Made by a program: the position numbers and the translations under genes. From Pseudisothecium myosuroides (Eukaryota; Streptophyta; Bryopsida; Hypnales; Lembophyllaceae), in assembly GCA_951799445.1 (NCBI GenBank), contig OX637288.1, positions 12,092,501 through 12,156,500 on the forward strand: a stretch of DNA of 64,000 nucleotides, in the 5' to 3' direction. Shown here one piece after another: positions 14,516-60,179 of this stretch (the first letter of the stretch is position 1; every line of letters begins with the position of its first letter). The notes under the pieces were generated by a model. It was not told the DNA's origin, did no database searches, and saw only the letters and a list, made by a program, of their open reading frames with translations.

Positions 14516-15302
14516 TGGTCAAGGATGACGTGTGCTATAAAAGGTGGTGTTGAGCATTCCAAAAAATTGTATAAACTTGAAGGTATGGAAAATTCTATAT
14601 TCTATCACTAGTGCCTTTCCTTTTCCTATTGCATCTTTGGTTTTGTGACTTGTAGTTTTCTAATGGTGAAATTCAAATGCGATCCCAAATACAAAGTGAC
14701 GAATTGTTGATTTGTCCATAACATAGATCATTGGTTGTTGTGCAGATGAATTTGGAAACTATGATGTTTTCATTAGTCATAGAGGCCCTAACACCAAGAC
14801 GGGCTTTGTGGGCTATTTATACGAAGCTTTGAAAAGAATTGGGTTGCATCCCTTTTGGGGATTGCATATCCATTGGTAAAGGCCAAGATTCTTGGAAATG
14901 CATTGACCATGCTATCCAGACAATCCCCCTAGCCCTAGTCATCTTTTCCGAGAGTTTTATCCAATCGGACTGGTGTTTGAAAGAGTTGCATGCAATGTTG
15001 GACTCTCCTTTAGTGAAGATGTTCCCAATCTTCTACAAAATTCAGCCATGGGAACTAAGTTTTCCAGAAGAAGGTCAACTTTCTGGTGGATTTATAAAGT
15101 TGGTAAAGAGGCACAATAAGATTTTGATTGAAGAATGGAAGGCTGATTTGAAAAGAGCTTCCAAGCTCAATGGTTGGGAGCACAAAGTAGGAGACAAGAG
15201 GTAAGCATGTGCATCTCCACTGTTTTATGAAGAATATTGTGGTTGAACTTGACATTGGCATTGTAAGTAGTGTTAATGAAATTTGTTTCAAATTACTTGC
15301 AG

Positions 15303-16422
15303 GTTGGAAAAGGACTTGGTGCTTGAGGTTGTTGGTAAGATCTTTGAATTGGCAAACAAGCCCCTTCCTTTGGATGTGGGTGATCATATTGCAGGCGTGA
15401 AGCAAGTTGCTAAGAACCGCACTCAAATTGTTCATGAAAAGAAAGTGTTGATGTTGGGATTGTGGGGAATGGGTGGAATTGGAAAGTCCACTTTGGCCCG
15501 AGAGTTATACAATCAATTGGGGCAAAGATTTGATGTGAGATGTTATGTGGAAGATGTTACGGAGAAGGTGAATCATGGTGGTGTGATGAGCGTCCAAAAT
15601 CATATTATGAAGGCCTTGTGTGAGAATGAGTCAATACAAAATATTGCAAACAAATGGAGGGGTAAGGTCATTCTTGAGGAAAGGTTATCTAAGAATCCCA
15701 TTCTTGTAGTTTTGGATGATGTTCGTGACCATGATGAGATGGATTATTTGATGTCACGCAAAATACTCAAGGAAGGTAGCATGTGCATTGTCACTTCTCA
15801 AAACCGTCGCACATTTGAGAAGTCAACTTCATTTCATATCGATCATGAGATTCACACGCATGATGTTCAAATTTTGGACAATAAAGATGCTCGAAGTGTC
15901 TTTGCATGTCATGCATTTGGAGGTGATTTGGAAGTGCCTCCAAGATTTGAAGGTCTTACTGGAGATGTTAGTATGGCATGTGGTGGAGTTCCATTGGTGT
16001 TAAAGGTTTGTGGATCTCTTTTGAGGGACGAGGAAGATGTAGAGATTTGGAAGGAAGTTTTAAAGAAGTTGAATTGTGGCACTATCATGGATGAGAAAAA
16101 GATATATGAATGTCTTCGAATTAGCTATGACGCTCTTCCAGAAGAACATCAAGAGATGTTTTTGGATATTGCATGTGCATTATTAGGAGCATCTGTAGAG
16201 ATGGCTAAACTTGTTTGGAAATCCCAAGGTTGGTCTACAGCATTAGGTGTGTGGAGCCTTGTGGAGATGGCCTTGATTAGAGTGGATGAGTTTGGTAATT
16301 TTGGCATGCACGACCACTTGCAAGACATGGGCCGTGCTATTTCCAAGCAAGAAAGAGCAAATGTGGGTATTTGCAAACACTTGTGGGGTTCTAAATCCTT
16401 GGCATTATTGAATAGGAATAAG
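15303..16422 (+). CDS. NB-ARC exon of TNL-A (intact frame inside pseudogene)
   Basis: This exon stays open although its gene is broken. Acceptor TTGCAG precedes it and donor AG|GTATGG follows. In order it shows: P-loop GLWGMGGIGKSTLA; kinase-2 PILVVLDDVRD; RNBS-B-like SMCIVTSQN; CHAFGG; CGGVPLVLKVCGSLL; a helical region with EMFLDIACALLG; and MHDHLQDMGRAIS. It is about 9 nt longer than its TNL-B partner (extra residues near GICKH). Nucleotide similarity to TNL-B is high throughout. NB-ARC domains bind ADP/ATP and act as the receptor switch. Retention of the frame may simply reflect recent death of the gene. Confidence 0.8.
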
Positions 16423-16706
16423 GTATGGTTTGTAACCATTGAACTTTAAATTTTTCAATCTTTTTAATATTGAGTATTATTGTGTAGCTTTATGTGTCCA
16501 ATTCATGAGAAAACTTGAATAAAATTTACGAGCAATGTTTATTCAATTTGATTGTTTGAGGATGTATGAATTGTTGTATATGGAGTCTTCTAATTTTAGT
16601 AATTGGAGTATGCAACATATTCTTTTTGAGTTTACCTAGGTCTAGTTGATCAAAATATATTTGTAAATTGAAGCTTTTCAATTTATTTTGGGATGTATAT
16701 GCGCAG

Positions 16707-18473
16707 CTACTACCTCATTTTCTTCAAACTTTGATCCTTCCATGAGGTCTTGGAATTTGTGTTGACCTTTTTCTCATAGAAGAATTGCATATATTCAAAT
16801 GGGAGGGTGGCTTGTTTAGGATGTCATCACTTCGAAGAAATTTGCGTTGGCTTAATTGCATTGATATGCATGCATTATTGAGACATTTTCCAGAGGCACT
16901 TGAAAACAATGAGTTGGTGATATTGTTTTGGAGAGATGATTTGTTAGATAGATTGCCTAAATCTTTTGGAAATTTGAAGTTGGAAGTGTTGAATCTACGG
17001 GCTTGTTATAGGCTCTTGGAGCTACCAAATTCGCTTGGAGGTCTCTAAAATTTGAAAAGCTTGAATCTTGAAGGGAGTGGAATCCAAAGTTTACTTGAAT
17101 CTTTTGGAAAGTTGAGCAACTTGGAAGTGTTGAATCTAAAATCTTGTTTCAATCTGAAGAAGCTACCAGATTCATTTGGAGGCCTCCAAAACTTGAAATA
17201 CTTCAATTTGAAATGCAGTAGAATCTGAAGTATACTTGAATCTTTTGGAAAGTTGAGCAACTTGGAAGTGTTAAATCTATGGTATTGTTATTGGCTCATT
17301 GTACTACTTGATTTGTTTGGAGGTCTCCAAAGTTTGAAAGACCTTGATCTTGAAGGAAGTAGAATCCAAAGTTTACCTAAATCTTTTGGAATGTTGAGCA
17401 ACTTGGGTGTGTTGAATCTACGGAATTGTGGTGAGCTAGTGGAGCTACCAAATTCATTTGGAGGCCTCCAAAATTTGAAAGACTTGGTTCTTGAAGGGTG
17501 TGGAATCCAAAGATTACCTAAATCTTTTGGAAAGTTGAACAATTTGGAAGTGTTGAATCTATGATATTGTCACAAGTTTAAGGAAGTACCAGATTCATTT
17601 GGAGGCCTCCAAAATTTGAAAAGCTTGGATCTTGAAGGGAGTGGTATCCAAAGTTTACCTGAATCGTTTGGAAAGTTGAACAACTTGGAAGTGTTGAATC
17701 TACGGGCTTATTTTAGGCTTGTGGGGCTACCAGATTCATTTGGAGGCGTCCAAAATTTGAAAGACTTGGATCTTCAATTGAGTGGACTCCAAAGTTTACC
17801 TAAGTCTTTTGAAAAGTTGATCAACTTGGAAGTGTTGAATCTATGGAATTGTAGTGAGCTTGTGGAGCTACCAAGTTCATTTGGAGGCCTCAAAAATTTG
17901 AAAGATTTGGTTCTTGAAGGGTGTAGAATCCAAAGACTACTTGAATCTTTTGGAAAGTTAAACAACTTGGAAGTACTGAATCTACGGTATTGTGGTGAGC
18001 CAGTTTCATTTGAAGGCCTTCAAAATTTGAAAGATTTGGATCTTAAAAGAAGTAGAATCCAAAGCTTACCTGAATCTTTTGGAAAGTTGAGCAACTTGGA
18101 AGTGTTGAATCTGGGGAATTGTAGTGAACTTGGGGAGTTACCAGATTTATTTGGAGACCTTCAAAATTTGAAAAACTTGGATCTTGAAAGAAGTGGAATC
18201 CAAAGTTTACCTGAATCTTTTGGAAAGTTGAGCAACTTAGATGTGTTGAATCTACACGATTGTAATGAACTTGTAACGCTACCAAATTCATTTGGAAGCC
18301 TCCAAAATTTGAAAAACTTGGACCTTAAAAGAACTAGAATCCAATGTTTACCTAAATCTTTTGGAATGTTGAGCAACTTAGAAGCATTGAATCTACGGTA
18401 TTGTTGCAAGCTCAAAAAGCTACCTAATTCATTGGGAGGCCTCCACAATTTGATAAATTCAGGCTCAAAATGA
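16707..18473 (+). pseudogene. LRR exon of TNL-A with four in-frame stops
   Basis: The acceptor is GCGCAG at 16,701-16,706. The frame opens LLPHFLQTLILP and hits TGA where TNL-B has Trp (TGG). The repeat units then run with the same 141-bp spacing as TNL-B (type-2 motif starts at 17,079, 17,220, 17,361, 17,502, 17,643) until one unit is shortened near 18,000. Typical units are LEVLNLRNCGELVELPNSF and LDLEGSGIQSLPESFGKL. Units differ from each other much more than those of TNL-B, so this array is older or was not homogenised. The array breaks off at 18,473; degenerate LRR text resumes at 21,057. Confidence 0.85.
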
Positions 18474-32223: not shown

Positions 32224-32485
32224 TTTTAACCCCTAAAGGACCAGCTTGCTATTTTTAGCAACATAGAAACTTTGGATAGGTATGTGTGGCTGGAGATTTC
32301 CATATTTTAGGCTGAATTTTTGGTAGAAGAAGGGGATGAGGAATATCTTTCATATGCACTAAATTTCATGACATTTGAAAATAGGAGTCAAAAGTTATGG
32401 CCTAATATGTTACTTTCTTTTGAAATTGGGCAGTCCGGGCAGATTAGAAAAATCACTTTTATGAAAAACAAAAATTTGAAATTGG

Positions 32486-33172: not shown

Positions 33173-33330
33173 ACTACCAAATAACTAAATTCATTTAGAG
33201 ACCTCCAAGATTTGAACCACTTAGATCTTCATAGAAGTGGAATCTAGAATTTATTTGACTATTTTAGGGGTCTCCCAAATTTTGGGGGCTTGAAGCAAGA
33301 AGTGAGAGTACTATTATAAATTTGCCCAAA

Positions 33331-37602: not shown

Positions 37603-37682
37603 TGTGTAGGAGTTCAGATTTGTGTAAGGGTAGAGTCCTTTAGAGTTCCGTGTGAACACTTTGAAACACTCTGAAACGAGGG

Positions 37683-38560: not shown

Positions 38561-38618
38561 ATGATGGGCACTATGGAGGGTGGTGCAAAGCATTCCAAGA
38601 AGTTGTGTGTACTTGAAG
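38561..38618 (+). CDS. TNL-B leader exon
   Basis: A 58-nt coding exon (MMGTMEGGAKHSKKLCVLE), ending in phase 1 before GTATTC. The TNL-A counterpart has the same length and phase and a similar end (HSKKLYKLE), which supports it. It is too short to stand out as a frame alone. A second ATG follows directly (38,564), so the exact start is uncertain by one codon. Confidence 0.7.
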
Positions 38619-41600
38619 GTATTCAGAATTCTATCACTAGTTATCTTTCCTTTTCCTATTGAGTTTCTAATATCATGACTTTGTAGTTTTTTGATGGTGA
38701 ATTTTGAGGGCGATTCCAAATATAAATTCATGAATTGTTGATTTGTCAATAAGATTGGTCATTGGTTGTTGTGCAGATGAATTTGGAAACTATGATGTTT
38801 TCATGAGTCATAGAGGCCCTGATGTCAAGACAGGCTTTGTGGGCTATTTATACGATGATTTGAAGAAAGCTGGGTTACATCCTTTTTTGGATTGCAAATC
38901 CATTGGTAAAAGCCAAGATTCTTGGAAATGCATTGACCAAGCTATCCAAACAACACCCCTAGCCCTAGTCATATTTTCTGAGACTTTCGTCCAATCGCAG
39001 TGGTGTTTAAAAGAGTTGCATGCAATCATGAACTCTCGTTCTATGAAGATGCTTCCAATCTTTTACAAAGTTCAACCATCAGATGTGAAATTTCCAGAAC
39101 AGGGCCAACTAGATGGTGAATATATGAGGTTGGTAAAGGAGCATGGTGAGGTTGTTATTGAAGAATGGGGGGCTGATTTGAAACGAGCATCAGTGGTCCA
39201 TGGTTGGGAGTACAAAGTGGGAGATCAAAGGTGAGTAAGGTGGGTACACCTAAAATCATTAGAAATTGGGTTGTGAGTAATTTGAAGGCTATCTAGTATG
39301 TAGTAGTTTGTACAAAAGAGATGTGTAGAAAAGGAAGCAATGCACAATCATTTTTTTGATTTTGACAAAAATGAGAGAACAATAGGGGTACAAAGTTTTG
39401 AAAGTAGAGTGCTTGGAGTTGCTCATAGGTTGCATTGAAAAAGTGTGGTCACATTCAAAAGCAATCAAGGTTGGAATTAAAAATATAGAAGTGTAGTAGT
39501 GTTATTCAGATTCTAAAAAATATGCAAGCTTGTATACCCATGATTTTATATCCTTGTGTTGTATGAGTCATGAAATAACATGAGGATTTATTAACATGAG
39601 CATATTTTTGTTGATCTGTAATCTCTAGCAAGTCTTCATGTGTTATTAAATCCTTGAGTTCTTTGAGTTTAGAAGCCAATCACATGTCCCAAAGCAGCCA
39701 ATGTTGCTTGCAGGAATTGTGAAGACATGGAGGTGCAATTTTCTAAATTAATTTTCAGTAGTTGGGGGTTTATTTTAGAGTGTAGTTTGACGCATGGTGC
39801 GATTTGGGGGGTACCCATTGTATGTGCTTCATCCCTACGTGTCATGAAGAGTATTGTGCTTGAACTTGACATTGACATTGTAGTCAGCATAAATGAAATT
39901 TGCTTCAAATTTTTTGCAGGTTGGAAAAGGAGTTGGTGGTTGAGGTGGTTGGAAAGATCTTTGAATTGGCAAATAAGCCCCTTCCCTTAGATGTGGGTGA
40001 TTATATTGTGGGCGTGAAGAAAGTTGCTGAGAACCTCATTCATGTGATAGATGAGAAGAAAGTGTTGATGTTGGGATTGTGGGGAATGGGTGGAATTGGA
40101 AAGTCTACTTTGGCGAGGGAGTTATACAACCAATTGGGCAGAAGATTTGATGCAAGGTGTTATGTGGAAGATGTGGGGGAGACAGTGAAAAAAAATGGTG
40201 TGACGAGTGTCCAAAATCAAATTCTGAAGGCCTTGTGCGAGAACGAATCAATACAAAGTATTGTAGACAAATCAAAGGGAAAGGTTATTCTTGAGGAAAG
40301 GTTATCAAAGAAATCCATTCTTTTGGTTTTGGATGATGTTCATGATGACAATGAGATGGATTATTTGATGTCACGCAAAATGTTGAAGGAAGGTAGCATG
40401 TGCATTGTCACTTCTCGAAATTGTCGCAATTTTGAGAAGTCCACTTCATTTCATATCCATCATGAGATTCACACGCATGATGTTCAAATCTTGGACGACA
40501 ATGATGCTCGAAGTGTCTTTACATGTCATGCATTTGGAGGTGATTTGAAAGTGCCTCCAAGATTTGAAGGTCTTGTTGAAGATGTTAGTATGGCATGTGG
40601 TGGAGTTCCATTGGTATTGAAGGTTTGTGGGTCTCTTTTGAAACAAGAGGAGGATGTGGAGATTTGGAAGGACGTTCTAAAGAAGTTGAATTGTGGCGCT
40701 ATCATGGACGAGAAGAAGATATTTGATTGTCTTCGGATTAGCTATGACTCTCTTCAAGAACAACATCAAGAAATGTTTTTGGATATTGCATGTGCATTAT
40801 TGGGACAATCTCTAGAGTTTGCCAAATTTGTTTGGAGATCCCAAGGTTGGTCTGCAGCATTGGGTGTCCGGAGCCTCGTGGAAAAGGCCTTGATTAGAGT
40901 GGATGCGGTAGGTTTCATTAGCATGCACGACCACTTGCGAGACATGGGCCGTGCCATTTCCAAGCAAGAAAGATCAAGTGTGAAACGCTTGTGGGGTTCA
41001 GAATCCTTGGCGTTGTTGAATAGGAATGAGGTATGGTTCGTACCCATTAAACTTTAATGCGGTGTTTCTCTAATTTTAGTAATTTAAGCTTTGCAATATA
41101 TTCCTTTTGAGTTTAGCTATGCCTAGTTTGGTCCAAGAAAAATTTGTATGTTAAAGCTTTCTAATTGTATTTTAGTTTTTTTGGGATGTGTTTGTGCAGC
41201 CACTACCTGTTTCTCTTCAAACTTTGATACTTCCATGGAATCTTGGAATTTGTGTTGACCTTTCTCTTATGAAAGGATTGCGCATATTCAAATGCGAAGG
41301 TGACTCGTTTTCAATGTCATCACTTCCAGAGAATTTGCGTTGGCTTGATTTCATTAACAATCGGTATACACCACTGAGACATTTTCCTGAGGCACCTAAG
41401 ATCAATGAATTGGTGATATTGTTTTGGAAGGATGAATTTTTGGAGAAATTGCCAAAATCTTTTGGAAATTGGAGGAAGTTAGAAGTGTTGTATCTATTGG
41501 ATTGTGGCAAGCTCAGGAACCTACCTAATTCATTTGTAGACCTTCAAAATTTGAAATACTTGGATCTTCATGGAAGTGGAATCCAACGTTTACCTGAATC

Positions 41601-44600
41601 TTTTAGAAAGTTGAGCAACTTACAAGTGTTGAATTTATCATACTGTAGTGAGCTTAAGGAGCTACCTGCTTCATTTGGAGGCCTCCAAAATATCAAAAAT
41701 TTAGATTTCCATTTGAGTGGAGTCCAACATTTACCTGAATCTTTTGGAAAGTTGAGCAATTTGGAAGAGTTGAATCTACAATATTGTAATGAGCTTGTAG
41801 ATCTACCTGAATCATTTGGAGGCCTCCAAAGCTTAAAAGACTTGCATCTCCATATGAGTGGAATCCAACGTTTACCTGAATCTTTGGGACAGTTGAGCAA
41901 TTTGGAAGTGTTGGATCTAGGGAATTGTAGTGAGCTTAAGGAGCTACCTGCTTCATTTGGAGGCCTCCAAAGCTTTAAAAACTTGCATCTTCAAGAAAGT
42001 GGAATCCAACGTTTACCTGAATCTTTTGGAATGTTAAGCAATTTGGAAGTTTTGGATCTACGGGGTTGTGATGAGCTTAAGGAGCTACCTGCTTCATTTG
42101 GAGGCCTCCAAAATTTGAAAAACTTGGCTCTCCAAAGAAGTGGAATCCAACATTTACCTGAATCTTTTGGAAAGTTGAGCAATTTGGAAGAGTTGAATCT
42201 ACAATATTGTAATGAGCTTGTAGATCTACCTGAATCATTTGGAGGCCTCCAAAGCTTAAAAGACTTGCATCTCCATATGAGTGGAATCCAACGTTTACCT
42301 GAATCTTTTGGAAAGTTGAGCAATTTGGAAGAGTTGAATCTACAATATTGTAATGAGCTTGTGGATCTACCTGAATCATTTGGAGGCCTCCAAAGCTTTA
42401 AAAACTTGCATCTTCAAGAAAGTGGAATCCAACGTTTACCTGAATCTTTTGGAAAGTTGAGCAATTTGGAAGTGTTGGATCTATGGGGTTGTGGTGGGAT
42501 TAAGGAGCTACCTACTTCATTTGGAGGGCTCCAAAGCTTAGAAAACTTGGCTCTCCCAAGGAGTGGAGTCCAACGTTTACCTGAATCTTTTGGAAAGTTG
42601 AGCAATTTGGAAGTGTTGGATCTATGGGGTTGTGGTGAGCTTAAGGAGCTACCTGCTTCATTTGGAGGCCTCCAAAGCTTAAAAAAATTGGATCTTGAAG
42701 GGATTGGAATCCAACGTTTACCTAAATCTTTTGGAAAGTTGAGCAATTTGGAAGTGTTGGATCTTCGGGGTTGTGATGAGCTTAAGGAGCTACCTGCTTC
42801 ATTTAGAGGCCTCCAAAATTTGAAAAACTTGGCTCTCCAAGGAAGTGGAATCCAACATTTACCTGAATCTTTTGGAAAGTTGAGCAATTTGGAAGAGTTG
42901 AATCTACAATATTGTAATGAGCTTGTGGATTTACCTGAATCCTTTGGAGGCCTCCAAAGTTTAGAAAACTTGAATCTTCGAAAGAGTGGAATCCAACGTT
43001 TACCTGAATCTTTTGGAAAGTTGAGCAATTTGGAAGTGTTGGATCTATGGGGTTGTGGTGGGGTTAAGGAGCTACCTGCTTCATTTGGAAGCCTCCAAGC
43101 TTTGAGAAACTTGCATCTCCAAAAGAGTGGAATCCAACATTTACCTGAATCTTTTGAAAAGTTGGGCAATTTGGAGGTGTTGGATCTATGGGGTTGGGGT
43201 GAGCTTAAGGAGCTACCTACTTCATTTGGAGGCCTCCAAGCCTTGAAGAAGTTGGCTCTTGAAAACAGTGGAATCCAACACTTACCTGAATCTTTTGGAA
43301 AGTTGAGCAATTTGGGAGTGTTGGATCTATGGGGTTGTGGTGAGCTTGTGGATCTATCTGAATCATTTGGAAGCCTCCAAAGCTTAAAAAACTTGAATCT
43401 TAGAATGAGTGGAATCCAACGTTTACCTGAATCTTTCGGAAAGTTGAGCAATTTGGAAGTGTTGAATCTATGGGGTTGTGGTGAGCTTACGGAGCTACCT
43501 GCTTCATTTGGAAGCCTCCAAAATTTAAAAAACTTGGATCTCCAAAGGAGTGGAATCCAACACTTACCTGAATCTTTTGGAAAGTTGAGCAGTTTGGAAA
43601 TGTTGGATCTATGGGGTTGGGGTGAGCTTAAGGAGCTACCTGCTTCATTTGGTGGCCTTCAAAATTTGAAAAACTTGGATCTCCAGAAGAGTGGAATCCA
43701 ACACTTATCTGAATCTTTTGGAAAGCTGAGCAATTTGGGAGTCTTGAGACTACAAGATTGTAATGAGCTTGTGGATCTACCTGAATCATTTGGAAGCCTC
43801 CAAAATTTAAAAAAGTTGCATCTTCGAATGAGTGGAATCCAACGTTTACCTGAATCTTTTGGAAAGTTGAGCAATTTGGAAGTGCTGGGTCTATGGGGTT
43901 GTGGTGAGCTTAAGGAGCTACCTGCTTCATTTAGAGGCCTCCAAAATTTGAAAAACTTGGCTCTCCAAGGAAGTGGAATCCAACATTTACCTGAATCTTT
44001 GGGACAGTTGAGCAATTTGGAAGTGTTGGATCTACGGGGTTGTGATGAGCTTAAGGAGCTACCTGCTTCATTTAGAGGCCTCCAAAATTTGAAAAACTTG
44101 GCTCTCCAAGGAAGTGGAATCCAACATTTACCTGAATCTTTTGGAAAGTTGAGCAATTTGGAAGAGTTGAATCTACAATATTGTAATGAGCTTGTGGATT
44201 TACCTGAATCCTTTGGAGGCCTCCAAAGTTTAGAAAACTTGAATCTTCGAAAGAGTGGAATCCAACGTTTACCTGAATCTTTTGGAAAGTTGAGCAATTT
44301 GGAAGTGTTGGATCTACGGGGTTGTGGTGAGCTTAAGGAGCTACCTGCTTCATTTGAAGGCCTCCAAAGCTTAGAAAACTTGGCTCTCCCAGGGAGTGGA
44401 ATCCAACTTTTACCTGAATCTTTTGGAAAGTTGAACAATTTGGAAGTGATGGATCTGCAAGATTGTAATGAGCTTGTGGATCTACCTGAATCATTTGGAA
44501 GCCTGCATAGCTTAAAAAACTTATCTTTCCAAGGGAGTGGAATCCAGCGTTTACCTGAATCTTTTGGAAAGTTGAGCAATTTGGAAGTGTTGGATCTATG

Positions 44601-47600
44601 GGGTTGTGGCAAGCTTAAAGAGCTACCTGTTTCGTTTGGAGACCTCCAAAATTTGAAAAACTTGAATCTTGGAAAGAGTGGAATTCAACGCTTACCTGAA
44701 TCTTTTGGAAAGTTGAGCAATTTGGAAGTGTTGGATCTATGGGGTTGTGGTGAGCTTAAGGAGCTACCTGCTTCATTTGGAGGCCTCCAAAATATCAAAA
44801 ATTTGGATTTCCATTGGAGTGGAGTCCAACGTTTACCTGAATCTTTGGGACAGTTGAGCAATTTGGAAGTGTTGGATCTACGGGGTTGTGATGAGCTTAA
44901 GGAGCTACCTGCTTCATTTAGAGGCCTCCAAAATTTGAAAAACTTGGCTCTCCAAGGAAGTGGAATCCAACATTTACCTGAATCTTTTGGAAAGTTGAGC
45001 AATTTGGAAGAGTTGAATCTACAATATTGTAATGAGCTTGTGGATTTACCTGAATCCTTTGGAGGCCTCCAAAGTTTAGAAAACTTGAATCTTCGAAAGA
45101 GTGGAATCCAACGTTTACCTGAATCTTTTGGAAAGTTGAGCAATTTGGAAGTGTTGGATCTATGGGGTTGTGGTGGGGTTAAGGAGCTACCTGCTTCATT
45201 TGGAAGCCTCCAAGCTTTGAGAAACTTGCATCTCCAAAAGAGTGGAATCCAACATTTACCTGAATCTTTTGAAAAGTTGGGCAATTTGGAGGTGTTGGAT
45301 CTATGGGGTTGGGGTGAGCTTAAGGAGCTACCTGCTTCATTTGGAGGCCTCCAAAATATCAAAAATTTGGATTTCCATTGGAGTGGAGTCCAACGTTTAC
45401 CTGAATCTTTGGGACAGTTGAGCAATTTGGAAGTGTTGGATCTACGGGGTTGTGATGAGCTTAAGGAGCTACCTGCTTCATTTAGAGGCCTCCAAAATTT
45501 GAAAAACTTGGCTCTCCAAGGAAGTGGAATCCAACATTTACCTGAATCTTTTGGAAAGTTGAGCAATTTGGAAGAGTTGAATCTACAATATTGTAATGAG
45601 CTTGTGGATTTACCTGAATCCTTTGGAGGCCTCCAAAGTTTAGAAAACTTGAATCTTCAAAAGAGTGGAATCCAACGTTTACCTGAATCTTTTGGAAAGT
45701 TGAGCAATTTGGAAGTGTTGGATCTACGGGGTTGTGGTGAGCTTAAGGAGCTACCTGCTTCATTTGAAGGCCTCCAAAGCTTAGAAAACTTGGCTCTCCC
45801 AGGGAGTGGAATCCAACTTTTACCTGAATCTTTTGGAAAGTTGAACAATTTGGAAGTGATGGATCTGCAAGATTGTAATGAGCTTGTGGATCTACCTGAA
45901 TCATTTGGAAGCCTGCATAGCTTAAAAAACTTATCTTTCCAAGGGAGTGGAATCCAGCGTTTACCTGAATCTTTTGGAAAGTTGAGCAATTTGGAAGTGT
46001 TGGATCTATGGGGTTGTGGCAAGCTTAAAGAGCTACTTGTTTCGTTTGGAGACCTCCAAAATTTGAAAAACTTGAATCTTGGAAAGAGTGGAATTCAACG
46101 CTTACCTGAATCTTTTGGAAAGTTGAGCAATTTGGAAGTGTTGGATCTATGGGGTTGTGGTGAGCTTAAGGAGCTACCTGCTTCATTTGGAGGCCTCCAA
46201 AATATCAAAAATTTGGATTTCCATTGGAGTGGAGTCCAACGTTTACCTGAATCTTTGGGACAGTTGAGCAATTTGGAAGTGTTGGATCTACGGGGTTGTG
46301 ATGAGCTTAAGGAGCTACCTGCTTCATTTAGAGGCCTCCAAAATTTGAAAAACTTGGCTCTCCAAGGAAGTGGAATCCAACATTTACCTGAATCTTTTGG
46401 AAAGTTGAGCAATTTGGAAGAGTTGAATCTACAATATTGTAATGAGCTTGTGGATTTACCTGAATCCTTTGGAGGCCTCCAAAGTTTAGAAAACTTGAAT
46501 CTTCAAAAGAGTGGAATCCAACGTTTACCTGAATCTTTTGGAAAGTTGAGCAATTTGGAAGTGTTGGATCTACGGGGTTGTGGTGAGCTTAAGGAGCTAC
46601 CTGCTTCATTTGGAGGCCTCCAAAGCTTAGAAAACTTGGCTCTCCCAGGGAGTGGAGTCCAACGTTTACCTGAATCTTTTGGAAAGTTGAGCAATTTGGA
46701 AGTGTTGGATCTATGGGGTTGTGGTGAGCTTAAGGAGCTACCTGCTTCATTTGGAGGCCTCCAAAGCTTAAAAAAATTGGATCTTGAAGGGATTGGAATC
46801 CAACGTTTACCTAAATCTTTTGGAAAGTTGAGCAATTTGGAAGTGTTGGATCTTCGGGGTTGTGATGAGCTTAAGGAGCTACCTGCTTCATTTAGAGGCC
46901 TCCAAAATTTGAAAAACTTGGCTCTCCAAGGAAGTGGAATCCAACATTTACCTGAATCTTTTGGAAAGTTGAGCAATTTGGAAGAGTTGAATCTACAATA
47001 TTGTAATGAGCTTGTGGATTTACCTGAATCCTTTGGAGGCCTCCAAAGTTTAGAAAACTTGAATCTTCGAAAGAGTGGAATCCAACGTTTACCTGAATCT
47101 TTTGGAAAGTTGAGCAATTTGGAAGTGTTGGATCTATGGGGTTGTGGTGGGGTTAAGGAGCTACCTGCTTCATTTGGAAGCCTCCAAGCTTTGAGAAACT
47201 TGCATCTCCAAAAGAGTGGAATCCAACATTTACCTGAATCTTTTGAAAAGTTGGGCAATTTGGAGGTGTTGGATCTATGGGGTTGGGGTGAGCTTAAGGA
47301 GCTACCTACTTCATTTGGAGGCCTCCAAGCCTTGAAGAAGTTGGCTCTTGAAAACAGTGGAATCCAACACTTACCTGAATCTTTTGGAAAGTTGAGCAAT
47401 TTGGGAGTGTTGGATCTATGGGGTTGTGGTGAGCTTGTGGATCTATCTGAATCATTTGGAAGCCTCCAAAGCTTAAAAAACTTGAATCTTAGAATGAGTG
47501 GAATCCAACGTTTACCTGAATCTTTCGGAAAGTTGAGCAATTTGGAAGTGTTGAATCTATGGGGTTGTGGTGAGCTTACGGAGCTACCTGCTTCATTTGG

Positions 47601-50600
47601 AAGCCTCCAAAATTTAAAAAACTTGGATCTCCAAAGGAGTGGAATCCAACACTTACCTGAATCTTTTGGAAAGTTGAGCAGTTTGGAAATGTTGGATCTA
47701 TGGGGTTGGGGTGAGCTTAAGGAGCTACCTGCTTCATTTGGTGGCCTTCAAAATTTGAAAAACTTGGATCTCCAGAAGAGTGGAATCCAACACTTATCTG
47801 AATCTTTTGGAAAGCTGAGCAATTTGGGAGTCTTGAGACTACAAGATTGTAATGAGCTTGTGGATCTACCTGAATCATTTGGAAGCCTCCAAAATTTAAA
47901 AAAGTTGCATCTTCGAATGAGTGGAATCCAACGTTTACCTGAATCTTTTGGAAAGTTGAGCAATTTGGAAGTGCTGGGTCTATGGGGTTGTGGTGAGCTT
48001 AAGGAGCTACCTGCTTCATTTAGAGGCCTCCAAAATTTGAAAAACTTGAATCTTGGAAAGAGTGGAATTCAACACTTACCTGAATCTTTTGGAAAGTTGA
48101 GCAATTTGGAAGTGTTGGATCTATGGGGTTGTGGTGAGCTTAAGGAGCTACCTGCTTCATTTGGAGGCCTCCAAAATATCAAAAATTTGGATTTCCATTG
48201 GAGTGGAGTCCAACGTTTACCTGAATCTTTGGGACAGTTGAGCAATTTGGAAGTGTTGGATCTACGGGGTTGTGATGAGCTTAAGGAGCTACCTGCTTCA
48301 TTTAGAGGCCTCCAAAATTTGAAAAACTTGGCTCTCCAAGGAAGTGGAATCCAACATTTACCTGAATCTTTTGGAAAGTTGAGCAATTTGGAAGAGTTGA
48401 ATCTACAATATTGTAATGAGCTTGTGGATTTACCTGAATCCTTTGGAGGCCTCCAAAGTTTAGAAAACTTGAATCTTCGAAAGAGTGGAATCCAACGTTT
48501 ACCTGAATCTTTTGGAAAGTTGAGCAATTTGGAAGTGTTGGATCTATGGGGTTGTGGTGGGGTTAAGGAGCTACCTGCTTCATTTGGAAGCCTCCAAGCT
48601 TTGAGAAACTTGCATCTCCAAAAGAGTGGAATCCAACATTTACCTGAATCTTTTGAAAAGTTGGGCAATTTGGAGGTGTTGGATCTATGGGGTTGGGGTG
48701 AGCTTAAGGAGCTACCTGCTTCATTTGGAGGCCTCCAAAATATCAAAAATTTGGATTTCCATTGGAGTGGAGTCCAACGTTTACCTGAATCTTTGGGACA
48801 GTTGAGCAATTTGGAAGTGTTGGATCTACGGGGTTGTGATGAGCTTAAGGAGCTACCTGCTTCATTTAGAGGCCTCCAAAATTTGAAAAACTTGGCTCTC
48901 CAAGGAAGTGGAATCCAACATTTACCTGAATCTTTTGGAAAGTTGAGCAATTTGGAAGAGTTGAATCTACAATATTGTAATGAGCTTGTGGATTTACCTG
49001 AATCCTTTGGAGGCCTCCAAAGTTTAGAAAACTTGAATCTTCAAAAGAGTGGAATCCAACGTTTACCTGAATCTTTTGGAAAGTTGAGCAATTTGGAAGT
49101 GTTGGATCTACGGGGTTGTGGTGAGCTTAAGGAGCTACCTGCTTCATTTGAAGGCCTCCAAAGCTTAGAAAACTTGGCTCTCCCAGGGAGTGGAATCCAA
49201 CTTTTACCTGAATCTTTTGGAAAGTTGAACAATTTGGAAGTGATGGATCTGCAAGATTGTAATGAGCTTGTGGATCTACCTGAATCATTTGGAAGCCTGC
49301 ATAGCTTAAAAAACTTATCTTTCCAAGGGAGTGGAATCCAGCGTTTACCTGAATCTTTTGGAAAGTTGAGTAATTTGGAAGTGTTGGATCTATGGGGTTG
49401 TGGCAAGCTTAAAGAGCTACTTGTTTCGTTTGGAGACCTCCAAAATTTGAAAAACTTGAATCTTGGAAAGAGTGGAATTCAACGCTTACCTGAATCTTTT
49501 GGAAAGTTGAGCAATTTGGAAGTGTTGGATCTATGGGGTTGTGGTGAGCTTAAGGAGCTACCTGCTTCATTTGGAGGCCTCCAAAATATCAAAAATTTGG
49601 ATTTCCATTGGAGTGGAGTCCAACGTTTACCTGAATCTTTGGGACAGTTGAGCAATTTGGAAGTGTTGGATCTACGGGGTTGTGATGAGCTTAAGGAGCT
49701 ACCTGCTTCATTTAGAGGCCTCCAAAATTTGAAAAACTTGGCTCTCCAAGGAAGTGGAATCCAACATTTACCTGAATCTTTTGGAAAGTTGAGCAATTTG
49801 GAAGAGTTGAATCTACAATATTGTAATGAGCTTGTGGATTTACCTGAATCCTTTGGAGGCCTCCAAAGTTTAGAAAACTTGAATCTTCAAAAGAGTGGAA
49901 TCCAACGTTTACCTGAATCTTTTGGAAAGTTGAGCAATTTGGAAGTGTTGGATCTACGGGGTTGTGGTGAGCTTAAGGAGCTACCTGCTTCATTTGGAGG
50001 CCTCCAAAGCTTAGAAAACTTGGCTCTCCCAGGGAGTGGAATCCAACTTTTACCTGAATCTTTTGGAAAGTTGAACAATTTGGAAGTGATGGATCTGCAA
50101 GATTGTAATGAGCTTGTGGATCTACCTGAATCATTTGGAAGCCTGCATAGCTTAAAAAACTTATCTTTCCAAGGGAGTGGAATCCAGCGTTTACCTGAAT
50201 CTTTTGGAAAGTTGAGCAATTTGGAAGTGTTGGATCTATGGGGTTGTGGCAAGCTTAAAGAGCTACCTGTTTCGTTTGGAGACCTCCAAAATTTGAAAAA
50301 CTTGAATCTTGGAAAGAGTGGAATTCAACGCTTACCTGAATCTTTTGGAAAGTTGAGCAATTTGGAAGTGTTGGATCTATGGGGTTGTGGTGAGCTTAAG
50401 GAGCTACCTGCTTCATTTGGAGGCCTCCAAAATATCAAAAATTTGGATTTCCATTGGAGTGGAGTCCAACGTTTACCTGAATCTTTGGGACAGTTGAGCA
50501 ATTTGGAAGTGTTGGATCTACGGGGTTGTGATGAGCTTAAGGAGCTACCTGCTTCATTTAGAGGCCTCCAAAATTTGAAAAACTTGGCTCTCCAAGGAAG

Positions 50601-52128
50601 TGGAATCCAACATTTACCTGAATCTTTTGGAAAGTTGAGCAATTTGGAAGAGTTGAATCTACAATATTGTAATGAGCTTGTGGATTTACCTGAATCCTTT
50701 GGAGGCCTCCAAAGTTTAGAAAACTTGAATCTTCGAAAGAGTGGAATCCAACGTTTACCTGAATCTTTTGGAAAGTTGAGCAATTTGGAAGTGTTGGATC
50801 TACGGGGTTGTGGTGAGCTTAAGGAGCTACCTGCTTCATTTGAAGGCCTCCAAAGCTTAGAAAACTTGGCTCTCCCAGGGAGTGGAATCCAACTTTTACC
50901 TGAATCTTTTGGAAAGTTGAACAATTTGGAAGTGATGGATCTGCAAGATTGTAATGAGCTTGTGGATCTACCTGAATCATTTGGAAGCCTGCATAGCTTA
51001 AAAAACTTATCTTTCCAAGGGAGTGGAATCCAGCGTTTACCTGAATCTTTTGGAAAGTTGAGCAATTTGGAAGTGTTGGATCTATGGGGTTGTGGCAAGC
51101 TTAAAGAGCTACCTGTTTCGTTTGGAGACCTCCAAAATTTGAAAAACTTGAATCTTGGAAAGAGTGGAATTCAACGCTTACCTGAATCTTTTGGAAAGTT
51201 GAGCAATTTGGAAGTGTTGGATCTATGGGGTTGTGGTGAGCTTAAGGAGCTACCTGCTTCATTTGGAGGCCTCCAAAATATCAAAAATTTGGATTTCCAT
51301 TGGAGTGGAGTCCAACGTTTACCTGAATCTTTGGGACAGTTGAGCAATTTGGAAGTGTTGGATCTACGGGGTTGTGATGAGCTTAAGGAGCTACCTGCTT
51401 CATTTAGAGGCCTCCAAAATTTGAAAAACTTGGCTCTCCAAGGAAGTGGAATCCAACATTTACCTGAATCTTTTGGAAAGTTGAGCAATTTGGAAGAGTT
51501 GAATCTACAATATTGTAATGAGCTTGTGGATTTACCTGAATCCTTTGGAGGCCTCCAAAGTTTAGAAAACTTGAATCTTCGAAAGAGTGGAATCCAACGT
51601 TTACCTGAATCTTTTGGAAAGTTGAGCAATTTGGAAGTGTTGGATCTACGGGGTTGTGGTGAGCTTAAGGAGCTACCTGCTTCATTTGAAGGCCTCCAAA
51701 GCTTAGAAAACTTGGCTCTCCCAGGGAGTGGAATCCAACTTTTACCTGAATCTTTTGGAAAGTTGAACAATTTGGAAGTGATGGATCTGCAAGATTGTAA
51801 TGAGCTTGTGGATCTACCTGAATCATTTGGAAGCCTGCATAGCTTAAAAAACTTATCTTTCCAAGGGAGTGGAATCCAGCGTTTACCTGAATCTTTTGGA
51901 AAGTTGAGTAATTTGGAAGTGTTGGATCTATGGGGTTGTGGCAAGCTTAAAGAGCTACCTGTTTCGTTTGGAGACCTCCAAAATTTGAAAAACTTGAATC
52001 TTGGAAAGAGTGGAATTCAACGCTTACCTGAATCTTTTGGAAAGTTGAGCAATTTGGAAGTGTTGGATCTATGGGGTTGTGGTGAGCTTAAGGGCTACCT
52101 GCTTCATTTCGAGGCCATCAAAATCTAA
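38561..52128 (+). CDS. TNL-B: giant TIR-NB-ARC-LRR immune receptor (~4,183 aa)
   Basis: Proposed join: 38,561-38,618, 38,777-39,230, 39,920-41,030, 41,200-52,128. All introns are GT..AG and the sum, 12,552 nt, is an exact multiple of three. Residues 1-20 leader; about 24-165 TIR (YDVFMSHRGPDVK; WCLKEL with Glu99, the position of the NADase glutamate in plant TIRs); about 172-541 NB-ARC (GMGGIGKST 226-234, LLVLDDV 305-311, CGGVPL 377-382, MHD 486-488); 542-4,183 linker and about 150 LRRs. Plant TNLs normally run about 900-1,500 residues with 10-30 LRRs, so the LRR part is several-fold oversized. TIR, P-loop and MHD residues are all intact, so the protein should be signalling-competent if made. 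The family role is effector sensing and NAD-derived signalling leading to immunity and cell death. The start is chosen because TNL-A has an ATG at the same place. The last 13 residues are out of frame with the LRRs. Confidence 0.85.
38777..39230 (+). CDS. TNL-B TIR exon
   Basis: Acceptor GTGCAG, donor AG|GTGAGT. It encodes a full TIR domain: NYDVFMSHRGPDVKTGFVGY (box 1), then HPFLDCKSIGKSQDSWKCID with the BB-loop region, PLALVIFSETFVQSQWCLKE (box with the catalytic-site Glu), and MLPIFYKVQPSDVKF (box 3). It ends VHGWEYKVGDQ with the Arg codon split across the intron. There is no frameshift, unlike TNL-A. The box-1 spelling SHRGPDVK is the type I associate with mosses and gymnosperms. Confidence 0.9.
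39231..39919 (+). other. TNL-B TIR/NB-ARC intron with ~590-bp insertion
   Basis: This intron is 689 bp against 102 bp in TNL-A. The last ~80 bp (atgaagagtattgtgcttga, acttgacattgacattgtag) match the TNL-A intron. The rest, from about 39,240 to 39,830, has no TNL-A counterpart, so it was gained in B or lost in A. No terminal repeats were seen. Confidence 0.75.
39920..41030 (+). CDS. TNL-B NB-ARC exon
   Basis: A single open exon from acceptor TTTGCAG to donor GAG|GTATGG. Motifs in order: P-loop GLWGMGGIGKSTLARELYNQ; RFDARCYVEDVGE; SVQNQILKALC; kinase-2 SILLVLDDVHD (Asp at the end, as in TNLs, not Trp as in CNLs); SMCIVTSRN; CHAFGG; GLPL-type CGGVPLVLKVCGSLL; CLRISYDSL; EMFLDIACALLG; MHDHLRDMGRAIS. 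All nucleotide-contacting residues expected of a working switch are present. The exon length (1,111 nt) is normal for the family, so only the LRR exon is abnormal. Confidence 0.92.
41200..52128 (+). CDS. TNL-B LRR mega-exon (3,642 codons)
   Basis: Acceptor TTTGTGCAG at 41,191-41,199; it opens PLPVSLQTLILPWNLGICVD, a linker conserved in TNL-A. From about 41,488 the exon is a continuous array of 47-residue pairs. Type 1 (24 residues) is LEVLDLWGCGELKELPASFG + GLQN. Type 2 (23 residues) is LKNLALQGSGIQHLPESFGK + LSN. Type-2 motif starts run from 41,578 to 52,012 at exactly 141-bp steps: 75 copies, no indel, no stop. At 52,091-52,093 one base is missing from aaggagctacct, giving the out-of-frame end KGYLLHFEAIKI and TAA at 52,126. 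Such a solenoid of ~150 repeats would make several superhelical turns. Confidence 0.9.
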   Translation, partial: PLPVSLQTLILPWNLGICVDLSLMKGLRIFKCEGDSFSMSSLPENLRWLDFINNRYTPLRHFPEAPKINELVILFWKDEFLEKLPKSFGNWRKLEVLYLLDCGKLRNLPNSFVDLQNLKYLDLHGSGIQRLPESFRKLSNLQVLNLSYCSELKELPASFGGLQNIKNLDFHLSGVQHLPESFGKLSNLEELNLQYCNELVDLPESFGGLQSLKDLHLHMSGIQRLPESLGQLSNLEVLDLGNCSELKELPASFGGLQSFKNLHLQESGIQRLPESFGMLSNLEVLDLRGCDELKELPASFGGLQNLKNLALQRSGIQHLPESFGKLSNLEELNLQYCNELVDLPESFGGLQSLKDLHLHMSGIQRLPESFGKLSNLEELNLQYCNELVDLPESFGGLQSFKNLHLQESGIQRLPESFGKLSNLEVLDLWGCGGIKELPTSFGGLQSLENLALPRSGVQRLPESFGKLSNLEVLDLWGCGELKELPASFGGLQSLKKLDLEGIGIQRLPKSFGKLSNLEVLDLRGCDELKELPASFRGLQNLKNLALQGSGIQHLPESFGKLSNLEELNLQYCNELVDLPESFGGLQSLENLNLRKSGIQRLPESFGKLSNLEVLDLWGCGGVKELPASFGSLQALRNLHLQKSGIQHLPESFEKLGNLEVLDLWGWGELKELPTSFGGLQALKKLALENSGIQHLPESFGKLSNLGVLDLWGCGELVDLSESFGSLQSLKNLNLRMSGIQRLPESFGKLSNLEVLNLWGCGELTELPASFGSLQNLKNLDLQRSGIQHLPESFGKLSSLEMLDLWGWGELKELPASFGGLQNLKNLDLQKSGIQHLSESFGKLSNLGVLRLQDCNELVDLPESFGSLQNLKKLHLRMSGIQRLPESFGKLSNLEVLGLWGCGELKELPASFRGLQNLKNLALQGSGIQHLPESLGQLSNLEVLDLRGCDELKELPASFRGLQNLKNLALQGSGIQHLPESFGKLSNLEELNLQYCNELVDLPESFGGLQSLENLNLRKSGIQRLPESFGKLSNLEVLDLRGCGELKELPASFEGLQSLENLALPGSGIQLLPESFGKLNNLEVMDLQDCNELVDLPESFGSLHSLKNLSFQGSGIQRLPESFGKLSNLEVLDLWGCGKLKELPVSFGDLQNLKNLNLGKSGIQRLPESFGKLSNLEVLDLWGCGELKELPASFGGLQNIKNLDFHWSGVQRLPESLGQLSNLEVLDLRGCDELKELPASFRGLQNLKNLALQGSGIQHLPESFGKLSNLEELNLQYCNELVDLPESFGGLQSLENLNLRKSGIQRLPESFGKLSNLEVLDLWGCGGVKELPASFGSLQALRNLHLQKSGIQHLPESFEKLGNLEVLDLWGWGELKELPASFGGLQNIKNLDFHWSGVQRLPESLGQLSNLEVLDLRGCDELKELPASFRGLQNLKNLALQGSGIQHLPESFGKLSNLEELNLQYCNELVDLPESFGGLQSLENLNLQKSGIQRLPESFGKLSNLEVLDLRGCGELKELPASFEGLQSLENLALPGSGIQLLPESFGKLNNLEVMDLQDCNELVDLPESFGSLHSLKNLSFQGSGIQRLPESFGKLSNLEVLDLWGCGKLKELLVSFGDLQNLKNLNLGKSGIQRLPESFGKLSNLEVLDLWGCGELKELPASFGGLQNIKNLDFHWSGVQRLPESLGQLSNLEVLDLRGCDELKELPASFRGLQNLKNLALQGSGIQHLPESFGKLSNLEELNLQYCNELVDLPESFGGLQSLENLNLQKSGIQRLPESFGKLSNLEVLDLRGCGELKELPASFGGLQSLENLALPGSGVQRLPESFGKLSNLEVLDLWGCGELKELPASFGGLQSLKKLDLEGIGIQRLPKSFGKLSNLEVLDLRGCDELKELPASFRGLQNLKNLALQGSGIQHLPESFGKLSNLEELNLQYCNELVDLPESFGGLQSLENLNLRKSGIQRLPESFGKLSNLEVLDLWGCGGVKELPASFGSLQALRNLHLQKSGIQHLPESFEKLGNLEVLDLWGWGELKELPTSFGGLQALKKLALENSGIQHLPESFGKLSNLGVLDLWGCGELVDLSESFGSLQSLKNLNLRMSGIQRLPESFGKLSNLEVLNLWGCGELTELPASFGSLQNLKNLDLQRSGIQHLPESFGKLSSLEMLDLWGWGELKELPASFGGLQNLKNLDLQKSGIQHLSESFGKLSNLGVLRLQDCNELVDLPESFGSLQNLKKLHLRMSGIQRLPESFGKLSNLEVLGLWGCGELKELPASFRGLQNLKNLNLGKSGIQHLPESFGKLSNLEVLDLWGCGELKELPASFGGLQNIKNLDFHWSGVQRLPESLGQLSNLEVLDLRGCDELKELPASFRGLQNLKNLALQGSGIQHLPESFGKLSNLEELNLQYCNELVDLPESFGGLQSLENLNLRKSGIQRLPESFGKLSNLEVLDLWGCGGVKELPASFGSLQALRNLHLQKSGIQHLPESFEKLGNLEVLDLWGWGELKELPASFGGLQNIKNLDFHWSGVQRLPESLGQLSNLEVLDLRGCDELKELPASFRGLQNLKNLALQGSGIQHLPESFGKLSNLEELNLQYCNELVDLPESFGGLQSLENLNLQKSGIQRLPESFGKLSNLEVLDLRGCGELKELPASFEGLQSLENLALPGSGIQLLPESFGKLNNLEVMDLQDCNELVDLPESFGSLHSLKNLSFQGSGIQRLPESFGKLSNLEVLDLWGCGKLKELLVSFGDLQNLKNLNLGKSGIQRLPESFGKLSNLEVLDLWGCGELKELPASFGGLQNIKNLDFHWSGVQRLPESLGQLSNLEVLDLRGCDELKELPASFRGLQNLKNLALQGSGIQHLPESFGKLSNLEELNLQYCNELVDLPESFGGLQSLENLNLQKSGIQRLPESFGKLSNLEVLDLRGCGELKELPASFGGLQSLENLALPGSGIQLLPESFGKLNNLEVMDLQDCNELVDLPESFGSLHSLKNLSFQGSGIQRLPESFGKLSNLEVLDLWGCGKLKELPVSFGDLQNLKNLNLGKSGIQRLPESFGKLSNLEVLDLWGCGELKELPASFGGLQNIKNLDFHWSGVQRLPESLGQLSNLEVLDLRGCDELKELPASFRGLQNLKNLALQGSGIQHLPESFGKLSNLEELNLQYCNELVDLPESFGGLQSLENLNLRKSGIQRLPESFGKLSNLEVLDLRGCGELKELPASFEGLQSLENLALPGSGIQLLPESFGKLNNLEVMDLQDCNELVDLPESFGSLHSLKNLSFQGSGIQRLPESFGKLSNLEVLDLWGCGKLKELPVSFGDLQNLKNLNLGKSGIQRLPESFGKLSNLEVLDLWGCGELKELPASFGGLQNIKNLDFHWSGVQRLPESLGQLSNLEVLDLRGCDELKELPASFRGLQNLKNLALQGSGIQHLPESFGKLSNLEELNLQYCNELVDLPESFGGLQSLENLNLRKSGIQRLPESFGKLSNLEVLDLRGCGELKELPASFEGLQSLENLALPGSGIQLLPESFGKLNNLEVMDLQDCNELVDLPESFGSLHSLKNLSFQGSGIQRLPESFGKLSNLEVLDLWGCGKLKELPVSFGDLQNLKNLNLGKSGIQRLPESFGKLSNLEVLDLWGCGELKGYLLHFEAIKI
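41488..52110 (+). repeat. 141-bp tandem array encoding paired LRRs (75 units)
   Basis: The unit contains the phrases gagcttaaggagctacctgc, ttggaggcctccaaa, agtggaatccaacgtttacc and tgaatcttttggaaagttga. The unit start at 41,578 + 141 x k fits every landmark checked: 42,706 (k=8), 43,975 (17), 44,821 (23), 45,385 (27), 46,231 (33), 46,795 (37), 48,205 (47), 48,769 (51), 49,615 (57), 50,461 (63), 51,307 (69), 52,012 (74). Differences between units are almost all substitutions. Confidence 0.95.
42540..43960 (+). repeat. ~1.4-kb block duplicated at +4,089 bp (46,629-48,049)
   Basis: The rare variant GIGIQRLPK (gga at 42,706) recurs at 46,795, exactly 29 units later. The ten-unit order that follows (GGVKELPASF, WGWGELKELPTSF, ALENSGIQH, LSESF, NLRMSGIQR, DLQRSGIQH, LDLQKSGIQHLSES) is the same in both. 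The blocks diverge again after FRGLQNLKNL at about 43,960 / 48,050. Confidence 0.9.
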
Positions 52129-52152
52129 AAAACTTATCTCTCCAAGGGAGTG
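43975..52152 (+). repeat. 846-bp (six-unit) higher-order repeats, six copies
   Basis: A block of six 141-bp units starting with the SLGQLSN variant recurs at 43,975, 45,385, 48,769, 49,615, 50,461 and 51,307; the last three to four are directly tandem. Its internal order is fixed: FRGLQ / ALQGSGIQH, LQYCNELVDLPESF, N-LRK/LQK-SGIQR, RGCGELKELPASF, ALPGSGIQL, MDLQDC, SFQGSGIQR, WGCGKLKEL, NLGKSGIQR, DFHWSGVQR. Copies appear almost identical in DNA. Confidence 0.9.
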
Positions 52153-52870
52153 GAATCCAACGTTTATGAATCATTTCCAAAGTTGAGCAATTTGGAAGTG
52201 TTGAATATATGGGCTTGTTATTGGCTCACGGGGCTACTAGAATCATTTGGAGGCCTGGAGGACTTGAAAAACTTGGATCTTCAAGGGAGTGGAATCCAAA
52301 GTTTACCTGAATCTTTTGGAATGTTGAGCAACTTAGAAATGTTGAATTTATCATATTGTGGTGAGCTTGTGGATCTACCAAATTGATTTGGAAGCCTCCA
52401 AAATTTGGAAAACTTGAATCTTCAAGGGAGTGGAATGCAAAGATTACCTGAAGCTTTTAGAAAGTTGAGCAACTTGATAGTGTTGAATCTACGGTATTGT
52501 TATAGGCTCTTGGGACTACTAGATTCATTTAGAGGGCTCCAAAATTTGAAAGGCTTGGATTTTAAAGGAAGTTGGATCCACCAGAATTCAAAATTTTTGG
52601 ATCTTAAAGGAAGTTGAATTTAAAGTTTATTAGAATCTCTTGGAAAGGTGAGCAACTTGTGGTGAGCTTGTGGTGCTACTACATTTGTTTGGAGGCCTCT
52701 ATAATCTGAATTATTTGGATCTTAAATAGAGTAGAATCTAAAATTTGCCCAAATCTTTTGGCAATCTTAGAAGCCTACAAAATTTGAATCTTCAACCGTA
52801 TACATTTTAGAACTTGCCTGAATCTTCTGGGTTCCACAAATGTTAGGGACTTGGTTCTATTTGAGTGTAC
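52150..52870 (+). pseudogene. decayed LRR tail of TNL-B
   Basis: After the stop at 52,128 LRR text continues: NLEVLNIWACYWLTGLLESF, then NLDLQGSGIQSLPESFGMLS and LNLSYCGELVDLPN ending at a TGA (52,384) where Ser is expected, then MENLNLQGSGMQRLPEAF to 52,617 and fragments to about 52,870. A 2-bp loss at about 52,166 (TTAtgaatca for TTACCTGAATCA) restores the original reading frame after the 1-bp loss at 52,092, so 52,150-52,617 is in phase with the main exon. The repeats here resemble TNL-A more than the homogenised array. The end resembles the TNL-A tail at 21,500. Confidence 0.8.
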
Positions 52871-58055: not shown

Positions 58056-58727
58056 AAGACTCTTATACAATGCTATATGGAGTTTTCTGAATTCATGTTG
58101 CAACTTTAAAAGTTCATAGCTCTTTATTTCAAGAAGAAACCTTCAAAATAATTACATTGTTGTCTCAAGTTTGCATTCAATTTGAGATTGTATATCAAAT
58201 TTATAGCTAAAACGGTGTAGTGAATTATCTACAATGTGGCTTCCAATGCAAACGTCATGTTGAAAACAAAACTGCGACTTAAAAAGTGGTCCACTCTATC
58301 ACGTACACACCCGCCTACATATACACCCAAAAATCAAATTCTCAATTTACAAGCTATACAAAATGGATTGCATAGCTAGGTAGGTAAGCAAAAACAAGAC
58401 ATAAGGAAACTACACGCAATTGGGACTTCTTCCTAAATCCACAAACTACAAATTCTTGCCTGTCTAAAATGTATTGTCTCTACTCATGCCTCTATTCATG
58501 ACTGACTAGGATAGCTTTTGGATAGCTATTTTTAATACTTTCAAAGTTCATAGTCATAGTTAATACCTACAGAATCCAGAAGATGTATAAAAAAATCTAG
58601 AATACTCTTTGGACTTCTAACAAGGTCTAACAAAAAAAAATAGGCAATTCAGTAACAAGAACAATGCTTAAATGCATATTTGGACGTAAGTCACCTTACA
58701 TATAACAACAAATCATATCAATAAAAT
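58056..58727. other. non-coding gap
   Basis: AT-rich DNA between the foldback nest and the inverted NTF2-like copy. I see no gene or repeat family. Confidence 0.5.
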
Positions 58728-60140: not shown

Positions 60141-60179
60141 CATGAAACTCCTAAAAATCACCTTCCGTTACTTACCACC

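Follow-up and report, generated by a model that had tools for sequence, protein, structure and literature searches.

We analysed a 64,000-nucleotide stretch of the genome of the moss Pseudisothecium myosuroides (contig OX637288.1, positions 12,092,501 to 12,156,500 of the forward strand; the window), which carries a gene for a plant immune receptor of the TIR-NB-ARC-leucine-rich repeat class (TNL) with an exceptionally long run of leucine-rich repeats (LRRs). The gene has four exons of 58, 454, 1111 and 10929 bp (Table 1). A preliminary description of the locus had joined these exons in one frame with correct splice sites, and this was borne out: GT donors and AG acceptors bound all three introns, the frame is single, and the predicted product of 4,183 residues has a terminal stop as its sole stop. 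A splice-acceptor-like sequence (TTTTGCAG) lies directly upstream of exon 1, making a 5' untranslated region intron possible. All three signals, the ATG, the GT donor and the acceptor-like sequence upstream, recur in a paralogue near 14.5 kb.

The same description had called the product a TNL, and the domains agree. TIR, NB-ARC and winged-helix profiles were matched (Table 1), and among solved structures Roq1 is the nearest relative across the TIR-NB-ARC part (7jlv; E 7e-71, residues 24-532 aligned). The TIR keeps the Glu of WCLKEL, which aligns with WCLEEL of Roq1 and is presumably the catalytic Glu. Exon 3 carries the P-loop, kinase-2, GLPL-type and MHD motifs. All had been called intact together with the TIR; this holds for the TIR, P-loop, kinase-2 and MHD, but the GLPL-type motif reads GVPL. 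LRR families were matched by profile in exon 4, within the scanned part (41176-44170). With a TIR in which the Glu position is kept, an NB-ARC with its motifs and a C-terminal LRR domain, the gene is confirmed, on these predicted features, as a TNL. The domain profile scores, together with a related copy of matching exon 1-3 layout at 14.5-18.5 kb, place it far beyond chance.

The last exon had been described as open for 10.9 kb with 75 paired-LRR units, and the protein as carrying about 150 LRRs. We counted 75 full 47-residue units, each consisting of two LRRs, and a regular-expression search found 153 LRR-like motifs in the protein, 151 of them in a single run; the pattern is strict, and irregular LRRs are undercounted. 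The LRR region spans about 3,560-3,640 residues. Tandem Repeats Finder (TRF) reported 0% indels and 78.8 copies, the latter because decayed units continue beyond the stop as far as about 52.58 kb. The stop itself follows a frame change in mid-unit, a feature absent from the preliminary description. Two sets of candidates within exon 4 were rejected: seven minus-strand open reading frames (ORFs) of 257-345 aa within the array were taken to be by-products of the repeat, and NCBIfam matches to type III effectors reflect LRR similarity inflated by repetition.

To describe how the array grew, we compared its units with one another. The 75 units reduce to 30 distinct DNA sequences and 28 distinct protein units, or to 25 types at a 1.5% threshold and 24 by single linkage at 98.5%. 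These types recur in blocks copied in register with 99.6-100% identity, in a search that retained near-identical runs only. Besides the copies in Table 1, there is a further block offset of 1410 bp, and a 1177-bp block is identical to a copy at an offset of 6486 bp. Two-parent chimeras were flagged among 7 of the 24 unit types, most clearly for F, X and Q: with Q and U as parents X has 1 mismatch, versus 10 when only its best single parent is used, and the corresponding figures are 0 versus 6 for Q (parents X and I) and 1 versus 8 for F (parents C and D). Mean distance was 0.156 among focal units versus 0.225 to paralogue units, the latter based on 8 stretches of the paralogue that differ from the consensus by no more than 30%. 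The nearest neighbour lay in the same gene for 30/30 focal and 7/8 paralogue units, counts that are inflated because near-identical copies sit among the 30 focal units. The in-register blocks, the chimeric units and the closeness within the gene therefore point to unequal exchange in register. The pattern is that of the LRR-enlarging tandem duplication ascribed to unequal recombination in soybean Rps11, from which we infer the process itself. Growth would be largely very recent, since block copies differ by 0-0.4% whilst the NB-ARC exons of the paralogues are separated by a synonymous distance of 0.31.

Table 1. Features of the TNL gene, its repeat array and its paralogue (positions within the window)
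Feature	Position	Strand	Details
Paralogous TNL, broken frames	14524..18473	+	TIR frame lost near 14.85 kb; NB-ARC exon open; LRR exon with four in-frame stops
Exon 1	38561..38618	+	Start codon and first 19 codons
Exon 2, TIR domain	38777..39230	+	PF01582, E 2.3e-25
Glu of WCLKEL	39013-39015	+	Plant TIR catalytic Glu position (presumed)
Exon 3, NB-ARC and winged helix	39920..41030	+	PF00931, E 2.5e-33; PF23282 (WHD_ROQ1), E 1.7e-12
P-loop	40083-40109	+	Exon 3; GMGGIGKST
Kinase-2	40320-40340	+	Exon 3; LLVLDDV
GLPL-type motif	40602-40613	+	Exon 3; GVPL
MHD motif	40923-40931	+	Exon 3
Exon 4	41200..52128	+	LRR-coding exon
Exon 4 region preceding the regular array	41200..41454	+	85 residues
Repeat array	41455..52029	+	75 full 47-residue paired-LRR units of 141 bp, in frame
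Block copy, 4089-bp offset	42560..43959 -> 46649-48048	+	1400 bp, 0 mismatches
Block copy, 3384-bp offset	44643..46656 -> 48027-50040	+	2014 bp, 2 mismatches
6-unit (846-bp) higher-order repeat at array 3' end	48697..52093	+	2551-bp self-overlap, 6 mismatches
Partial last unit, frame change, stop	52030..52128	+	
Decayed LRR units beyond the ORF	52129..52590	+	19-28% from array consensus

An array of this kind could also be lengthened by an assembler that duplicated near-identical blocks, the real array being shorter, and the 1400-bp and 1177-bp blocks that are identical at offsets of 4089 and 6486 bp would fit such an error. However, other block copies carry differences common to the copies, units at the junctions are chimeric, and the 0% indels found by TRF are unlike the errors of noisy reads. 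Only 29% of 301-base positions in the array are unique, so an array assembled from short reads should come out too short; all 9,174 of its 9,174 1501-mers are distinct, so accurate long reads should resolve it. Moreover, the 5,666 distinct 301-mers need nearly 6 kb, and even a sceptical collapse would leave about 40 units. We give assembly expansion very little credence.

We consider it probable that the locus is a moss TNL gene whose LRR exon grew by unequal exchange among 141-bp modules and whose protein works as other TNLs do. Between unit types, the ratio of nonsynonymous to synonymous change (pN/pS) was 0.25 for LRR-core codons (bootstrap 0.15-0.43, 300 resamples) and 1.13 for exposed strand codons (bootstrap 0.84-1.53), and the core-exposed contrast in pN was matched in 0/10,000 column permutations. 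The core codons look constrained and the exposed strand unconstrained, the trace expected of a working receptor, and one that would predate the last amplification. Measured against the paralogue, the nonsynonymous-to-synonymous rate ratio (dN/dS) is 0.32 for the NB-ARC exon and 0.44 for the TIR part. A probability of 0.0017 for the lack of stop codons (no stop, 122 distinct changes) was dropped as unclean, since two of these changes, each taken by itself, would create stops.

Several points weigh against this reading. The whole unit has a pN/pS of 0.78 and the remaining positions 1.00. The core and exposed classes follow the LRR pattern, yet they were defined after the per-column table had been viewed, which makes their contrast partly post hoc, and the units recombine and are hence non-independent. 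Copies of the same type vary at 6 sites only, 5 of them nonsynonymous, so the present length shows no selection signal. Lastly, the ORF stops within a unit and three decayed units lie beyond it, perhaps the onset of gene death. These two features of the 3' end, the broken paralogue nearby and the lack of a selection signal since amplification would all suit a dying or silent gene, with an array that expanded unopposed and a protein that is unstable or never produced. Set against this, the TIR, the NB-ARC and the 10.9 kb LRR exon run without stop or frameshift before 52.1 kb, in contrast to the paralogue with its lost TIR frame and four in-frame LRR-exon stops, and the focal branch in an NB-ARC tree is the shorter (0.087 versus 0.15). 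We judge a dying or silent gene unlikely.

Inspection by eye of 23 tails of relatives gave 6, all from the moss Ceratodon purpureus (P0123, P0124, P0128, P0129, P0130 and P0139), that look cut off in-unit, with short unrelated ends. This looks as though arrays commonly end by losing the frame in their final unit, and at least six relatives with such ends weigh against taking the mid-unit stop as gene death. No C-JID follows the LRRs within the ORF, which terminates inside an LRR unit, and PF20160 (C-JID) is likewise absent from the precomputed Pfam lists of the relatives P0122-P0148 and P0242. An ORF listing, in a region without a profile scan, gave no plus-strand ORF of at least 90 residues between 52.5 and 57.7 kb.

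The array might also be spliced or translated into shorter isoforms in vivo. A comparison by motif pattern counted 30 donors of the GTRAG type in it, together with 23 YAG sites having at least 8 pyrimidines in the preceding 12 nt. Two weak points speak against their use: GTRAGT donors are absent from the array, though just 1 of the gene's own 3 donors has that form; and the gene's own acceptors (3/3) are TGCAG after T-rich stretches, whereas TG precedes 0 of the first 20 of the 30 array CAGs. Such processing would seem a long shot.

The paralogue sits 24 kb upstream of the focal gene, with a matching exon 1-3 arrangement. Three of the four stops in its LRR exon fall in its repeat array, and on this reading of its frames it is a copy showing the 141-bp module in decay. 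Between the two gene copies lie orphan pieces of the 141-bp LRR unit (21041-21481, 30131-30253, 32118-32235 and 33188-33244). Upstream of both copies is a 1.5-kb element (36061-37608 and 9830-11316), and a third, inverted copy at 58697-60144 (minus strand) is 82-88% identical to that at 36-37.6 kb; an ORF of the element at 36788-37210 (minus strand) had no Pfam match. The segments 9444-9907 and 35615-36077 are 95-98% identical, whereas identity between matching parts of the genes beside them is lower, at about 78-87%; this may reflect recent conversion or the boundary of a younger duplication. Finally, 3571-5579 and 27092-28601 are nested inverted repeats that resemble miniature inverted-repeat transposable elements, their hairpin-forming arms being 76-97% complementary.

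The preliminary description had envisaged an LRR solenoid of several superhelical turns that might present a multivalent surface to ligands or act as a decoy. AlphaFold, run with 18 aligned sequences on the initial 1,025 residues of exon 4 (20 units and the 85 residues ahead of the array), gave a mean pLDDT of 91.4 and a pTM of 0.61 and predicted a regular strand-helix alternation, so that a continuous, high-confidence solenoid is predicted for this part only. A Foldseek search of the PDB returned LRR proteins of a general kind, the GSO1 ectodomain and SHOC2 among them, whose TM over the whole query was low; this would add only the identity of the fold as an LRR solenoid.

The best matches to the protein are TNLs of Ceratodon purpureus, 47-60% identical. 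Of the 27 matches P0122-P0148, 26 are from this moss and one (P0141) is a metagenome fragment of 570 residues that matches 62% of the query at 71% identity. In a tree of 37 NB-ARC sequences (35/38 relatives passed a P-loop and length filter), the focal gene pairs with its paralogue as sister (100/100), and the two group with 24 Ceratodon proteins (100/100), the order inside the group being largely unresolved. This group shares the TIR-NB-ARC and the same 47-residue paired-LRR module, which was found in 23 of the 27 matches (4-16 profile matches each) and in none of the four short entries P0145-P0148. Because the relatives carry the same module, the focal array represents the group's own module at an extreme: its members have at most 21 module matches each, versus 76 in the focal protein, and, unlike it, 4 of the 26 Ceratodon proteins end ahead of the LRR. 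The 21 matches belong to P0242, a Ceratodon purpureus TNL of 1,910 aa whose long LRR block holds the stretch GLKNVKNFGYSGSAF... four times. This block is apparently an independent higher-order LRR growth within the same group.

The product had been expected to be among the largest NLR (nucleotide-binding LRR) proteins, and the comparisons support this. Its longest LRR run is 151, versus at most 48 among 324 fetched proteins (many of them non-NLR), the runners-up being P0005 of Vitis riparia with 48 and P0002 of Chara braunii with 45. The latter, of 2,160 aa, is an algal NB-ARC protein in which the 45 regular LRRs form one run. A search for giant relatives (7,960 candidates of 2,003-6,373 residues) named no moss among the 120 of 572 matches listed, many of which are nameless; from these 120 we chose 24 NLRs by eye from their Pfam lists. 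Long NLR-labelled matches with two or three P-loops (e.g. P0022 and P0092) were set aside as poor precedents, because multiple P-loops suggest merged gene models. In the excerpted text of a survey of about 39,469 plant NLR LRR domains, over three quarters have 200-600 residues and about 10% have 1,000-3,400, with few TNLs above 1,000 (PMC9585916). The long tail of that survey ends at 3,400 residues, and the focal LRR region exceeds it.

If the protein acts as other TNLs do, NB-ARC contacts with the first LRRs would hold it off at rest, ligand binding somewhere along the solenoid would free it, and the freed protein would oligomerise via the NB-ARC, allowing the TIRs to hydrolyse NAD+. Signalling would proceed without EDS1, because seed-free plants, in an excerpted account that also notes moss TIR-NLR expansion, lack EDS1 (PMC11218826). 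As the NB-ARC contacts reported in the survey excerpt (PMC9585916) are chiefly within the first LRRs, the array beyond them may be free to bind or idle. The older, selected binding surface may lie in the units towards the start, which are more divergent; the near-identical later blocks may have arisen recently through exchange and be mostly redundant, tolerated because every change in length comes in multiples of 141 bp and leaves the frame intact.

Length might itself be adaptive: with many near-identical sites, the receptor could bind a repetitive or multivalent ligand with avidity, or it could reach further than a normal LRR. By analogy, it has been discussed whether the repeat number of Vat homologues in melon helps to determine recognition (PMC8012345, as excerpted), and LRR expansion may have contributed to the broad spectrum of soybean Rps11 (PMC8571336, as excerpted). 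The sameness of the copies is, however, explained by recency alone, and no fetched relative matches the focal length. Size need not be an adaptation, since it consists mostly of recently made near-identical copies, and we hold adaptive length to be quite unlikely. More doubtful still is that the array serves as a recombination cassette, a frame-safe 141-bp array in which frequent unequal exchange would yield chimeric surfaces, new lengths and variants among individuals, combined with avidity for repetitive ligands.

On the reading that we favour, of recent unequal exchange in a working TNL gene, the locus is an extreme and regular case of LRR number, suited to testing what extra repeats do. 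The units are nearly interchangeable, and length could therefore be altered with little change in composition; the history of exchange is readable from the array sequence. Mosses are mostly haploid and often clonal, and model moss species can be edited. The array also suggests that runaway LRR growth occurs in moss TNLs too, beyond flowering plants.

Amongst solved receptors, the TNL of 7crb, which we take to be RPP1, is homologous over TIR-NB-ARC (E 7e-45). Roq1 carries a post-LRR domain; none of that type was found in the focal gene, where the downstream DNA had no profile scan. Both receptors have 21 LRRs, versus about 151 here (PMC9585916, as excerpted). Tsw likewise has an LRR much longer than NB-ARC contact requires, although it is a coiled-coil NLR with an LRR of 1,652 residues; why some NLRs have LRRs far exceeding that contact is given as an open question in the same excerpt (PMC9585916). 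In Vat homologues, the number of near-perfect repeats in the LRR region also rises and falls, possibly through unequal crossover or conversion, with up to seven 65-residue repeats (R65aa) against 75 units of 47 residues here (PMC8012345, as excerpted). Rps11, a protein of 2,463 residues described in an excerpted report as the product of repeated unequal recombination, and its cluster of giant NLRs resemble the focal gene in their enlargement through tandem LRR duplication (PMC8571336); unlike Rps11, the focal gene repeats one short module 75 times. Searches of the open-licence literature, which miss most subscription journals, turned up no description of an NLR carrying some 150 LRRs. Giant NLRs arising from LRR duplication are already known, and, by its predicted product, the focal gene is an extreme member of that class, exceeding the 3,400-residue LRR maximum of the survey.
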